Positions 19,989 to 23,487 of a stretch of 64,000 bases of DNA are shown here, piece by piece. The translations under genes were made by a program, and so were the position numbers. The notes below the pieces were generated by a model. It searched no databases. It was not told the DNA's origin and worked only from the letters and a program-made list of their open reading frames with translations. How positions within the stretch are numbered: position 1 is the stretch's first letter; the number at the start of each line of letters is the position of its first letter. The stretch comes from Synechococcus sp. PCC 7502 (GTDB taxonomy: Bacteria; Cyanobacteriota; Cyanobacteriia; Pseudanabaenales; Pseudanabaenaceae), in NCBI RefSeq assembly GCF_000317085.1, contig NC_019702.1, positions 2,634,394 to 2,698,393 on the forward strand, in the 5' to 3' direction.

Positions 19989-20774
19989 TTAAATCTCGGC
20001 TATATTCTTTGTTTTAATTCTTTGTTTTATAAATTGGATCAGAAATAAAATTATAAAAATAGGGTTATTAATCAAATATCTACGCCAGAGTCTCTGTGGT
20101 TCTTGACGCAAACGGTATAACCACTCTAACCCCGAACCCATCATCCACCGTGGTGCCTGAGTTACCTGTCCCCCATGAAAATCAAACGCTGCCCCCACAC
20201 CAATCATCACCGCATTAATTTTACCTTGGGCTTCAGCCATCCAGTATTCCTGCTTGGGACAACCTAAACCCACAAATATAACTTTGGCACCAGAAGCTTT
20301 AATCAAGTTACAGTCCTGCTCCAGTTGATCTCTGAGATTAGATTCCGAAGTAAAAGGGGGTGAATAGGAGCCAGCGATCGCCAAGGTGGGAAATTTTTGT
20401 TTGAGATTTTGCTTTAAGTTTTCTAGGGTTTGCTCTGTACTGCCATAGAGATAGATGGAATAGCCCAAATTACAACTGCGATCGCACCATGCCAACATTA
20501 AATCAGGACCATATACTCGGGGTTGCTGGGTTGCTCCAAGTAATCTTAATGCCCAGACTAGTGGCATCCCATCGGGGGTAACTAGATCGGCATGATCCAA
20601 GACCCTTTGATACTTTCGATCCCAATAACCAGTCATGACCACATGGACATTAGCAGCCACTATATAACAGGATTTTTCAGCATTTACCCATCCTTCAATG
20701 CGATCGCAGGCATCGTTGTAGCTGGTAGCTTGAATATTTGTTTTTAAAACTTGATAGGATTGAGCGGATTTCAA
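19989..20774 (-). CDS. WecG/TagA/CpsF family glycosyltransferase (GT26)
   Basis: A 261-residue transferase for lipid-linked sugar assembly of surface polysaccharides. Motifs: VAANVHVVMTG, DLVTPDGMPLVWALRL, RVYGPDLML, IYLYGSTEQTLENLK, KVIFVGLGCPKQEYWM and MIGVGAAFDFHGG followed by APRWMMGSGLEWLYRL. This is the full domain set. The C-terminal helix (INNPIFIILFLIQFIK) probably contacts the membrane. Confidence 0.92.
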   Translation of the reverse strand: MKSAQSYQVLKTNIQATSYNDACDRIEGWVNAEKSCYIVAANVHVVMTGYWDRKYQRVLDHADLVTPDGMPLVWALRLLGATQQPRVYGPDLMLAWCDRSCNLGYSIYLYGSTEQTLENLKQNLKQKFPTLAIAGSYSPPFTSESNLRDQLEQDCNLIKASGAKVIFVGLGCPKQEYWMAEAQGKINAVMIGVGAAFDFHGGQVTQAPRWMMGSGLEWLYRLRQEPQRLWRRYLINNPIFIILFLIQFIKQRIKTKNIAEI

Positions 20775-20855: not shown

Positions 20856-21338
20856 ATGTCAAAACGAGTCAGAATTGAACCAATCGCTCAAGAAGCGGAT
20901 ATAGAGACCAACGGCAACCTGCTTTCGGTGTTAATGCAGGAAGATTTAAATATTCTCAAGGAGTGTGGCGGACGGGGAATGTGTGCGACCTGTCATGTCT
21001 ATATCCAAGAGGGTATGAATTCTCTAAGTCCCATTGGGAAGCGAGAGCAGCGTACCCTAGAGGTAATCACCACCTGTACACCTAATTCTCGTCTTGCTTG
21101 TCAAGCTAAGGTAATGGCAGAGGGAGTAGTTGTAGAGCTACCTGTGGGGATGTATATTCAGTCAATTCAGGATATTGAGGCTTTAATTGGCAGACGCTGT
21201 GAAAAGCCAATGCTCCACCCTGTAACGGGACAAACTTTAGTGGAAGTGGGGCAGCTAATCACCCGTTCAATGGTGCGCCAGTTGGAAAGTACAGATTTTC
21301 GGATTGGGGAACAGTTGTCTCAAACTAAAAGAGCCTGA
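20856..21338 (+). CDS. 2Fe-2S ferredoxin with a C-terminal extension (Slr0148-like)
   Basis: The start is taken at ATG 20856 (MSKRVRIEPIAQ...), giving 160 residues; the frame is open from 20787, but the extra part is in the divergent promoter region. Cluster cysteines are C37, C43, C46 (CGGRGMCATC) and C82 (RLACQ). This is a plant/vertebrate-type fold with CX5CX2C spacing. After residue 95 an extension contains IGRRCEKPMLHPVTGQTLVE and ITRSMVRQLE, seen in a cyanobacterium-specific subgroup. The V4R-domain gene follows at 200 bases, as in the slr0144-slr0152 operon of Synechocystis, where slr0148 is such a ferredoxin. The operon link is inference. Confidence 0.8.
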   Translation: MSKRVRIEPIAQEADIETNGNLLSVLMQEDLNILKECGGRGMCATCHVYIQEGMNSLSPIGKREQRTLEVITTCTPNSRLACQAKVMAEGVVVELPVGMYIQSIQDIEALIGRRCEKPMLHPVTGQTLVEVGQLITRSMVRQLESTDFRIGEQLSQTKRA

Positions 21339-21429
21339 AATAGCTTTAATCCTTAATAAAGAATATAAGGTCATTCCAAATTAAAGATCACCTTACGCGG
21401 TATATCCACCCAGTACTAAAATCAAGTTT

Positions 21430-21473
21430 AGCTGGAGTTAAGTTTTTGCCTCTGCCCTTCAACTCCCCTAGCT
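21430..21473 (+). repeat. Imperfect inverted repeat in the leader of the V4R gene
   Basis: AGCTGGAGTTAAG (21430-21442) can pair with CTTCAACTCCCCTAGCT (21457-21473) with small bulges, around a T-rich loop. It lies about 65 bases before the V4R start. It could be a leader hairpin or the end of the ferredoxin transcript. Confidence 0.35.
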
Positions 21474-21537
21474 CAAGTCCTATAAAATATATTGCGTAAC
21501 ATCAGCCTATAATTTAACTATACATAGGAAATCTAAA

Positions 21538-22221
21538 ATGACTATCAGCACAGCAGGTTTAGGTAATGCGATCGCTAAAAGCCGCACGATCCAAAGTCAC
21601 TATAGCTTGCAAGACTTTTTTACCCTTAATTCTGAACAGGGTGTAATCTTGGACTGGAACGGTATGCGTAATGTATTAACTAGTGAAGATTTTATTATTG
21701 GTTTGCAAGAGGGTTTAGAAGAAGAGGTCGGGGAAGCCTCTGCCTCGGTGATGTACTCCATTGGCTGTGAATGGGGGCGACAAGACTCAGAGTTTTTTGC
21801 CCAGTGGTTTGAGAAAGATTTTAACCGTAGTATTCGCCAAACCAATTTACCATTTTTACTAGAAACTTGGTGGTGGCCCTTTGCAGCTCAGGGTTGGGGG
21901 CGTTGGAATATGGATATGAGCGATCGCAAGCAGGGATTTATGTTTATTAGTATCTATGATTCGGCGGTGGCGCGTACCCTTGGGGATGTGGGCAAACCAG
22001 TTTGTCATCTGTATGCGGGTTTATTTTCAGGGTTTTTTACCAATTTAGTAAATAAAAAGCTAGACTGTATCGAGATTCAGTGCTATTCCATGGGCGAAAA
22101 TTTCTGTAAGTTTTTGTTGGGTGGTGGTGATCGCATTGATGCAGCATCTTTTTGGTTAAATGAAGGAGCAACTAGTCGGGATATTGAGCGTCGCCTGCGC
22201 GATGGAGGGCTAACTAGGTAA
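21538..22221 (+). CDS. V4R-domain protein (Slr0144/Slr0147-like)
   Basis: A 227-residue protein. The C-terminal half carries a V4R (4-vinyl reductase) domain: GKPVCHLYAGLFSGFF, DCIEIQCYSMGENFCKFLLG. The N-terminal half contains GCEWGRQDSEFF and an unusually Trp-rich ETWWWPFAAQGWGRWNMD stretch. Cyanobacterial V4R proteins of this type are encoded in the slr0144-slr0152 operon implicated in photosystem II assembly and high-light response. The next gene starts inside its stop codon (TAATG), so they are translationally coupled. Confidence 0.75.
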   Translation: MTISTAGLGNAIAKSRTIQSHYSLQDFFTLNSEQGVILDWNGMRNVLTSEDFIIGLQEGLEEEVGEASASVMYSIGCEWGRQDSEFFAQWFEKDFNRSIRQTNLPFLLETWWWPFAAQGWGRWNMDMSDRKQGFMFISIYDSAVARTLGDVGKPVCHLYAGLFSGFFTNLVNKKLDCIEIQCYSMGENFCKFLLGGGDRIDAASFWLNEGATSRDIERRLRDGGLTR

Positions 22222-22472
22222 TGACTAATCAAAAGTTTCTGGGGCAGACGGTTAAGGCTTTTTGGCAGGGTGTAAATTGGGAAAATCGTCCCATCCTCAC
22301 AAATCAGTCTTCATCTTCCGCCATGACTTTGACGGTTCAGGATTACTTTGCCATGATTCCTTGGTCAGGGGGAGCGATTGCCGTTGCCACCTCTAAGCCA
22401 CAAATTCCTCAAGACTTAGGTTCATCTGAAACCTTAGAAGATTTCCTAGATGATATATCCAAATTTTTTTAA
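22221..22472 (+). CDS. Small conserved cyanobacterial protein coupled to the V4R gene
   Basis: An 83-residue protein beginning MTNQKFLGQTVKAFWQGVNW. The centre LTVQDYFAMIPWSG resembles other small proteins of the slr0144-slr0152-type operon. No enzymatic motif is seen. The ATG overlaps the stop of the V4R gene by one base. The C-terminus is acidic (DLGSSETLEDFLDDISKFF). Function unknown. Confidence 0.7.
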   Translation: MTNQKFLGQTVKAFWQGVNWENRPILTNQSSSSAMTLTVQDYFAMIPWSGGAIAVATSKPQIPQDLGSSETLEDFLDDISKFF

Positions 22473-22593: not shown

Positions 22594-23487
22594 ATGGTTT
22601 CAAATTGGCAACGTGTGAGGAGTTACACTAACCAGCAACCTATCGGCATTTTTGATAGCGGTGTGGGTGGTTTAACTGTATTACAAGAGCTAAAACGTCA
22701 ACTGCCCAACGAAAAAATAGTTTACTTTGCTGATACTGCTAGGGTACCGTGGGGTTCTCGTCCGCAGTCAGAAATTATTGAGTTCGTCCAGCAAATCTTA
22801 AGTTGGATGCAAACTCAACAGGTAAAAATGGTAGTTATGGCTTGCAATACTAGTTCTGCCCTGGCGATTGAAACTGTGCGATCGCAGTTTGACTTACCCA
22901 TGATTGGTTTAATTTTACCTGCTGCTAAGGCGGCAATTAAGTATGGTCAACGCATCGGTGTAATTGCGACTACAGCCACGGTTAATAGTATGGCTTATGT
23001 CAATGCGATTACCGAAACCCACAAGCAATCTCAGGTATGGCAAGTTGCCTGTCCTGAATTTGTCCCATTGATTGAGGCAGATCGGATACACGATCCCTAT
23101 ACCTATGAAATTGCGAAAAACTATCTAACTCCATTAATTGAGGCGGAAATTGATACTTTAGTGATGGGCTGTACTCATTATCCCCACTTGCTTGAAGTAT
23201 TCAAACAAATTCTCCCGCCCTATGTTAAATTTATTGACCCCGCCAAGTATGTCGTTAAGGCTGTCAATCAGGAGTTAGACATTTTAGGTTTGCGCGATCG
23301 CAGTTCTCGTAAGAATGCTGTTACCAAGTTTTATGTCAGTGGTGATGCTGAACAATTTGCGGAGGTTTCCAGTCGTTGGTTAGGGAATAAACCCCTAGTG
23401 CAGAATGTAGAATTATTACCAACGCCATTTACAGTTGAGGAATCATCTTTAATCGAGACCGCAGAGCCCGTTGAACTACTTTCCTGA
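22594..23487 (+). CDS. murI: Glutamate racemase
   Basis: It makes D-glutamate for peptidoglycan. Motifs: IGIFDSGVGGLTVLQEL, YFADTARVPWGS, the first catalytic Cys in VMACNTSSALA and the second in MGCTHYPHLL. The start at ATG 22594 is preferred because AGGAAAAGA lies directly upstream. The open frame begins at 22555. Length is normal (297 aa). The amidase gene starts 40 bases later, so a cell-wall operon is likely. Confidence 0.94.
   Translation: MVSNWQRVRSYTNQQPIGIFDSGVGGLTVLQELKRQLPNEKIVYFADTARVPWGSRPQSEIIEFVQQILSWMQTQQVKMVVMACNTSSALAIETVRSQFDLPMIGLILPAAKAAIKYGQRIGVIATTATVNSMAYVNAITETHKQSQVWQVACPEFVPLIEADRIHDPYTYEIAKNYLTPLIEAEIDTLVMGCTHYPHLLEVFKQILPPYVKFIDPAKYVVKAVNQELDILGLRDRSSRKNAVTKFYVSGDAEQFAEVSSRWLGNKPLVQNVELLPTPFTVEESSLIETAEPVELLS

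Follow-up and report, generated by a model that had tools for sequence, protein, structure and literature searches.

Within the window analyzed here, the whole 64,000-nucleotide stretch of Synechococcus sp. PCC 7502 DNA, three genes on one strand were originally predicted to match three gene types of the slr0144–slr0152 (Pap) operon of Synechocystis sp. PCC 6803, and the rest of that operon to be missing, with murI in its place. The locus raises the question of what these three genes are and what has become of the others. It is nearly certain that the trio represents the Slr0148, Slr0144 and Slr0145 types within the FeS/V4R/globin cluster of cyanobacteria, which forms the Pap operon core and is scattered in this genus; equivalence to the Slr proteins is based on gene order, domain type and published descriptions. 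The genome (G000) comprises three contigs, is 99.93% complete and carries the window on contig C3.

Gene content of the locus

The first gene of the trio (Table 1), for which the ORF listing gives an ATG start at 20856, encodes a protein that matches Pfam Fer2 (E 6.8e-9), whose best solved relatives are of the putidaredoxin/adrenodoxin types and whose cluster ligands are spaced C37-x5-C43-x2-C46...C83. This spacing and these relatives fit Slr0148, i.e., Fed5, which is classed as adrenodoxin-like (PMC4284462, in excerpt). The protein continues for 77 residues past the last cluster Cys, which amounts to about 60 extra residues. This C-terminal extension had been described as specific to cyanobacteria; it is real, and within the phylum, which was the range compared, it extends beyond the class to which this genome belongs, as it was also found in a genome of another class (G010). 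Its pattern RR..HP.TG..LVE.G.LI.RS presumably resembles a short RNA polymerase beta-prime motif.

The V4R-B gene and the small gene are coupled by TAATG at 22219-22223, as had been noted from the sequence. The overlap is also one base in the genus sister (L068) and four bases in the Pseudanabaena loci. The Trp-rich N-terminal half ascribed to the V4R protein was likewise borne out, with six of its nine Trp residues lying in the first half. A spurious small gene was ruled out by its conservation beside V4R-B. As for regulatory signals, the HLR1 high-light regulator box, scanned for with what we take to be its consensus, was not enriched in the window (32 matches against 41.3 expected), and promoter and terminator scans gave nothing exceeding shuffles.

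Table 1. Features of the locus (positions in the window) and detached core genes (positions on contig C3 of the genome).
Feature	Position	Strand	Basis
Upstream neighbor, divergent from the FeS gene (presumably wecG)	19989..20774	-	ORF; same place in genus sister
Adrenodoxin-type [2Fe-2S] (FeS) protein, Slr0148 (Fed5) type, 160 aa	20856..21338	+	Fer2 match, solved relatives
V4R-B, V4R protein of Slr0144 type, 227 aa	21538..22221	+	PF02830, E 3e-21
WWWP codons, Trp111-Trp113	21868..21876	+	V4R-B row alignment
Predicted Zn site	22003..22107	+	Cys156 22003-22005, Glu179 22072-22074, Cys182 22081-22083, Cys190 22105-22107
Small "string" protein, Slr0145 type, 83 aa	22221..22472	+	Overlaps V4R-B stop by one base
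Motif copy 1 VKAFWQGVNWEN, residues 11-22	22251..22286	+	Motif pattern
Motif copy 2 VQDYFAMIPWSG, residues 39-50	22335..22370	+	Motif pattern
Acidic conserved C-terminal motif TLEDFLDDISKFF, residues 71-83	22431..22469	+	Alignment
murI, glutamate racemase; neighbor outside the set	22594..23487	+	TIGR00067, E 1.7e-84
Slr0146-type globin (globin 1)	C3:2558195-2558656		Globin tree, PF00502 over cut-off
Slr0147-type V4R (V4R-A)	C3:337329-337988		Identity to V4R-A of intact clusters
Slr0149-type globin (globin 2)	C3:117113-117586		Globin tree, PF00502 over cut-off

Relatives and distribution in the phylum

The relatives comprised 23 named cyanobacterial loci and one from Eremiobacterota, all obtained in one scan of genome contigs. 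In Pseudanabaena and several other relatives the order FeS-V4R-small-globin-V4R is contiguous on one strand; other cyanobacteria have V4R-small-globin-V4R, with FeS-globin either after it or apart. A locus of Pleurocapsales (L089) carries the whole nine-gene series V4R-small-globin-V4R-FeS-globin-Fer2-TPR-kinase, its Fer2 being a plant-type ferredoxin. The assignment of the trio to three Pap gene types is upheld by these relatives, which carry the same genes in order, and the arrangement is beyond chance because this order recurs in independent genomes.

At least 56 of the 386 genomes of the phylum have a V4R match, a lower bound given that the search for relatives begins with a loose first look. 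The cluster being absent from most sampled genomes, it does not answer a general need of photosynthesis. V4R-B was found in 54 of the 386 genomes in 65 copies, 59 of which have V4R-A no more than 5 kb away. Those with no V4R-A nearby are the gene in the window, a copy that lies at the end of a contig, and four additional copies, these all in genomes that also carry a paired one. The extra copies (G280:C2:1907959, G247:C1:352131, G179:C1:1949453, and G089:C1:874905) belong to genomes of one family (f19), and there is no string gene near them. Since contiguity of V4R-B and V4R-A is the rule, the simplest reading is that the scatter is derived in this genus.

In G010 the locus (L121, G010:C109:3001-18000) reads ParA/BcsQ-like ATPase-unknown-FeS-V4R-B-string-globin-V4R-A-heme oxygenase-protein kinase. 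As this genome belongs to another class, the protein kinase and the string protein may both be ancient parts of the cluster.

Location of the remaining core genes

The core count used here covers the Slr0144- to Slr0149-types; the Slr0150-type ferredoxin and the Slr0152-type kinase belong to large generic families. All six core genes are present on the same chromosome, at four sites. The statement that murI stands in place of the other, missing operon genes therefore holds at the locus, where murI comes directly after the trio; genome-wide it does not, and loss of the remaining core genes is ruled out by globin 1, the second V4R gene and globin 2 at three other sites. Searches of the genome also returned a second V4R pair, a lone V4R, further FeS relatives, and twelve phycobilisome-family matches.

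Assignment of the detached genes was made against their relatives. In a globin tree of 63 rows (57 different), C3:2558195 joins the cluster globin 1 sequences (99/69) and C3:117113 falls in the FeS-linked globin 2 clade (99/92), both separate from the light-harvesting phycobiliproteins. The detached V4R-A shares 59–70% identity with V4R-A of intact Pseudanabaena-type clusters, compared with 31% to the copy in a second cluster of the same genome, and the FeS protein of the trio shares 77–89% with those of related clusters, compared with 44% to its second-cluster copy. The genome thus holds an adrenodoxin-type FeS protein, both V4R clades (unlinked) and cluster-type globins (unlinked); contiguity is lacking, and with four sites this is a gene set and not an operon.

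Within the genus, comparison was made with one other genome (G386, the same as G387 via L068 and its coordinates). Its trio proteins are 61–89% identical to those of the window and are flanked by the same neighbors, murI included. In both genomes V4R-A adjoins hisI; the surroundings of globin 2 match between the two and those of globin 1 differ. In the genus sister hisI-V4R-A, globin 1, and globin 2 lie on contigs other than that of the trio. This genus has split the ancestral FeS-V4R(B)-small-globin1-V4R(A) block while keeping all core genes. A broken operon whose six core genes have nevertheless been kept suggests selection as a set, with slr0151 dispensable. No orthologue of Slr0151 was found in the genome: the L089 query matched only repeat-level stretches within residues 121-265, and gave one further weak match at residues 29-146 (E 0.06).

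The detached V4R-A gene is followed by a DUF1993 gene and further ORFs (L005:10267-12889; G000:C3:338267-340889), none of which are there in the genus sister. We take those besides DUF1993 to be transposase-like ORFs and a GGDEF-like gene.

Predicted structure of V4R-B

An AlphaFold2 model of V4R-B was obtained with pLDDT 84.4 and pTM 0.81 from an alignment of 47 rows picked from a larger row set. In fold it best matches the phenol- and zinc-binding sensor domains found in PoxR, MopR, and DmpR (E from 5.9e-8, Z 14.2–14.9), extending over 176–184 residues, nearly the whole length, at 13–18% identity; V4R-like BcsD (Z 12.5), Bet3/TRAPP subunits, and MJ1460 come next. A PDB profile search with the V4R alignment placed MJ1460 first (E 0.0034), and DmpR, MopR, and PoxR, which the fold search listed, were unlisted there at E up to 1.

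The four residues of the predicted zinc site are kept in 45 of 45 V4R-B rows, Eremiobacterota and G010 included. At the same columns PoxR has Cys, Glu, Cys, and Cys, and V4R-A, which is without most of these residues, has Gln for Glu in 39 of its 45 rows and Asn for the last Cys in 35. V4R-B thus shows both the predicted fold and the zinc-ligand residues of the DmpR/MopR/PoxR-type V4R domain. The zinc ligands of DmpR are printed as Cys151, Glu172, Cys177, and Cys185 (PMC7264223, in excerpt). In the PoxR alignment, as in V4R-B, the Glu stands three residues before the second Cys, and from this spacing the printed DmpR Glu number may be off by two. The WWW at 111-113 was found in all 45 V4R-B rows and in none of the 45 V4R-A rows; these row sets contain repeats (L100 equals L004, and L056 is the L074 locus as judged by its globin).

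The small string protein

No Pfam or NCBIfam model matched the small protein over cut-off, and a literature search for slr0145 found it mentioned with no function of its own. Members of the family range from about 80 to about 250 residues and repeat a 12-residue motif, V..FF...NW.G, in two to five copies. An alignment of 21 members gives the blocks V..F[FW]...NW.N and V..[YF]F...[PS]W.G, which are of the same form, and an acidic short C-terminus; other members terminate in ...LF. Four copies are present in L064; in G247, G280, and G179 the pattern finds four and inspection by eye a fifth, and in G010 three or four are seen by eye.

Two or more copies occur in 35 of 38 distinct members, against no more than a single protein with that many in each of 1000 shuffled sets. 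The pattern was written after the family had been looked at, and the second-cluster small proteins (L004, L055, L100), which fail it, were left out. Elsewhere the motif appears in 24 of 2269 other ORFs, five of which are members missed by the first search; the only other ORFs with at least two copies (L064, L066, L089) are all among those five. The looser pattern used for the count in the 38 members finds one or more copies in 76 of 2265 other ORFs and two or more in three. As a DNA pattern the motif gives seven hits on one genome strand (control 1 and 1), one being the copy in the window. The small protein was matched in 51 genomes of the phylum sample, 50 of them with V4R-B; the other match (G159) is weak and has three stops. 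The small gene lies within 700 bp of 53 of the 65 V4R-B copies.

The structural model of the small protein reached pLDDT 70.3 and pTM 0.40 and places short helices on the motifs; a PDB profile search returned only designed coiled coils and chance-like matches. A weak model with short helices at the motifs is as expected of a flexible chain with docking helices, and the protein could possibly serve as a flexible multivalent tether, a reading we hold tentatively. It is rather doubtful, though conceivable, that Slr0145-type proteins would form a new family of multivalent strings threading V4R-B/V4R-A pairs (and globins) as beads on a string, in the manner of BcsH with V4R-like BcsD, with a docking motif whose copy number varies between lineages and an assembly that here outlived the break-up of the operon.

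A second, paralogous cluster

The genome also carries a second five-gene FeS-V4R-small-globin-V4R cluster (C3:1749102-1752457; L004:8102-11457). Its FeS protein has a degenerate receiver-like N-terminus and its globin bears a CRRD motif; V4R-B, a small protein, and V4R-A make up the rest. It is preceded by a PAS/GAF histidine kinase gene, one for an AraC-type regulator, and one for an EAL protein. Duplications of the cluster, both full and partial, have already been reported (Rockwell 2023, PMC10151467, in excerpt).

Receiver-like FeS proteins are encoded at L004:8102-9100 (G000:C3:1749102-1750100) and at L050:7191-8225 (G000:C3:1453191-1454225), each located after genes for a PAS/GAF histidine kinase and an AraC-type regulator. 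The N-terminus of the former matches Pfam Response_reg below cut-off (E 0.12); the latter gene has no adjoining V4R or globin. The receiver-like and FeS parts, fused in this genome, are two adjacent ORFs in the genus sister (L130:10048-11642, G387:C215).

Possible role of the gene set

What we infer beyond the retention of the gene set starts from published work on its relatives. Slr0144–Slr0149 have been localized to the thylakoid membrane, where a Slr0149-GFP pull-down supports their interactions (PMC9880817, in excerpt), and bilin binding has been shown for BBAG globins from related clusters (PMC10151467, in excerpt). Thylakoid location, bilin-binding globins, the zinc residues, the motif chain and the V4R fold together suggest a ligand-holding V4R pair and globins tied by the string protein, with the FeS protein as redox partner. 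The core products probably act as one complex, and it is somewhat likelier than an even chance that the best overall explanation is a scattered set retained with its products still acting together, in that they would cooperate at the thylakoid despite the split of their genes.

Under this explanation V4R-B would be a zinc-stabilized ligand-pocket domain pairing with a zinc-poor V4R-A, by analogy with TRAPP, where V4R-fold subunits pair (V4R heterodimers are known there by PDB titles). The pair would bind a small hydrophobic ligand, for which a tetrapyrrole or precursor seems the best candidate, albeit with less than even confidence in the tetrapyrrole type. The string protein would dock several V4R/globin units through two to five helical VxxFFxxxNWxG motifs (two here), and the adrenodoxin-type protein may pass an electron to the assembly, or report redox state at it, during photosystem II assembly or repair.

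The CxRD cysteine, which serves for bilin attachment, is missing from both main-set globins, which weakens a covalent-bilin role. The photosystem II link rests partly on Slr0151 in Synechocystis, and as no orthologue was found it may fail to carry over to this genome. Both absences argue against transferring the Synechocystis picture unchanged. In the literature, fed5/slr0148 has been called dispensable (PMC4284462, in excerpt), which conflicts with the incomplete segregation of a slr0148 deletion (PMC8887894); HoxEFU gave no reaction with Fdx5 (PMC7363133, in excerpt), and the roles of Slr0144 and Slr0147 are described as unsettled in a paper of 2026 (PMC13326532, in excerpt).

The products might instead be a signaling module, one that senses redox state and aromatics or tetrapyrroles on behalf of regulators, and no assembly factor; we regard this as unlikely yet the strongest of the alternatives. 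The nearest folds of V4R-B are those of sensor domains, the paralogous cluster follows the kinase, the AraC-type response regulator and the EAL protein, its FeS protein has the receiver-like N-terminus, and a third FeS gene of this kind lies behind another kinase/regulator pair; in G010 and L089, too, the cluster has a protein kinase gene nearby. The trio itself, however, adjoins no kinase or regulator, and the published data cited above place the Synechocystis proteins at the thylakoid. It is very improbable that the trio is a decaying relic whose job is done by the complete second cluster, even though the globin of that cluster retains the CxRD cysteine absent from the two main-set globins. 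The trio proteins are conserved in the genus sister, with Cys, Zn-ligand and motif residues intact, and globin 1, V4R-A, and globin 2 are retained in both genomes of the genus; it is the V4R-A of the second cluster that has lost its Pfam V4R signature, and two Pseudanabaena-family genomes (G193 and G346) have kept both cluster types. Least probable of all is an enzymatic role in chlorophyll synthesis, in which V4R-B would act as a 4-vinyl reductase and take electrons from the ferredoxin: V4R-B does match the BchJ model (E 2.7e-5) and the FeS gene adjoins it, but its 24.1 bits fall below the cut-off of 74.3 (NCBIfam TIGR02019), the domains it matches in fold over its whole length are ligand sensors and not enzymes, V4R occurs in a minority of genomes, and cyanobacteria possess other divinyl reductases.

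Comparison with known systems

The retained gene set is closest to slr0144–slr0152 of Synechocystis sp. PCC 6803, with the 0148, 0144, and 0145 types in the window and the 0146, 0147, and 0149 types elsewhere on the chromosome. It differs from the Pap operon in its four sites, in having FeS before the V4R gene, and in that a Slr0151 orthologue was not found. With the BBAG and pre-PcyA clusters (Rockwell 2023, PMC10151467, in excerpt) it shares an FeS protein, a globin, and a pair of V4R proteins from two clades; unlike in those, no bilin reductase or heme oxygenase was recognized beside the trio, and the globins are detached and without the CxRD cysteine. The cluster of G010, by contrast, has a heme oxygenase gene. 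V4R-B resembles the sensor domains of DmpR, MopR, and PoxR in its predicted whole-domain fold and its aligned three Cys and one Glu, and differs from these regulators in having neither ATPase nor DNA-binding domains. BcsD/BcsH (PDB 7zzq, a beads-on-a-string filament) likewise combines a V4R-like fold unit with what is, according to the entry title, an associated string-forming protein, and the likeness of BcsH to the small protein is one of analogy. Set against these systems, the genes described here are a scattered version of a known gene set, of which one element, the motif-bearing string protein, may be new.
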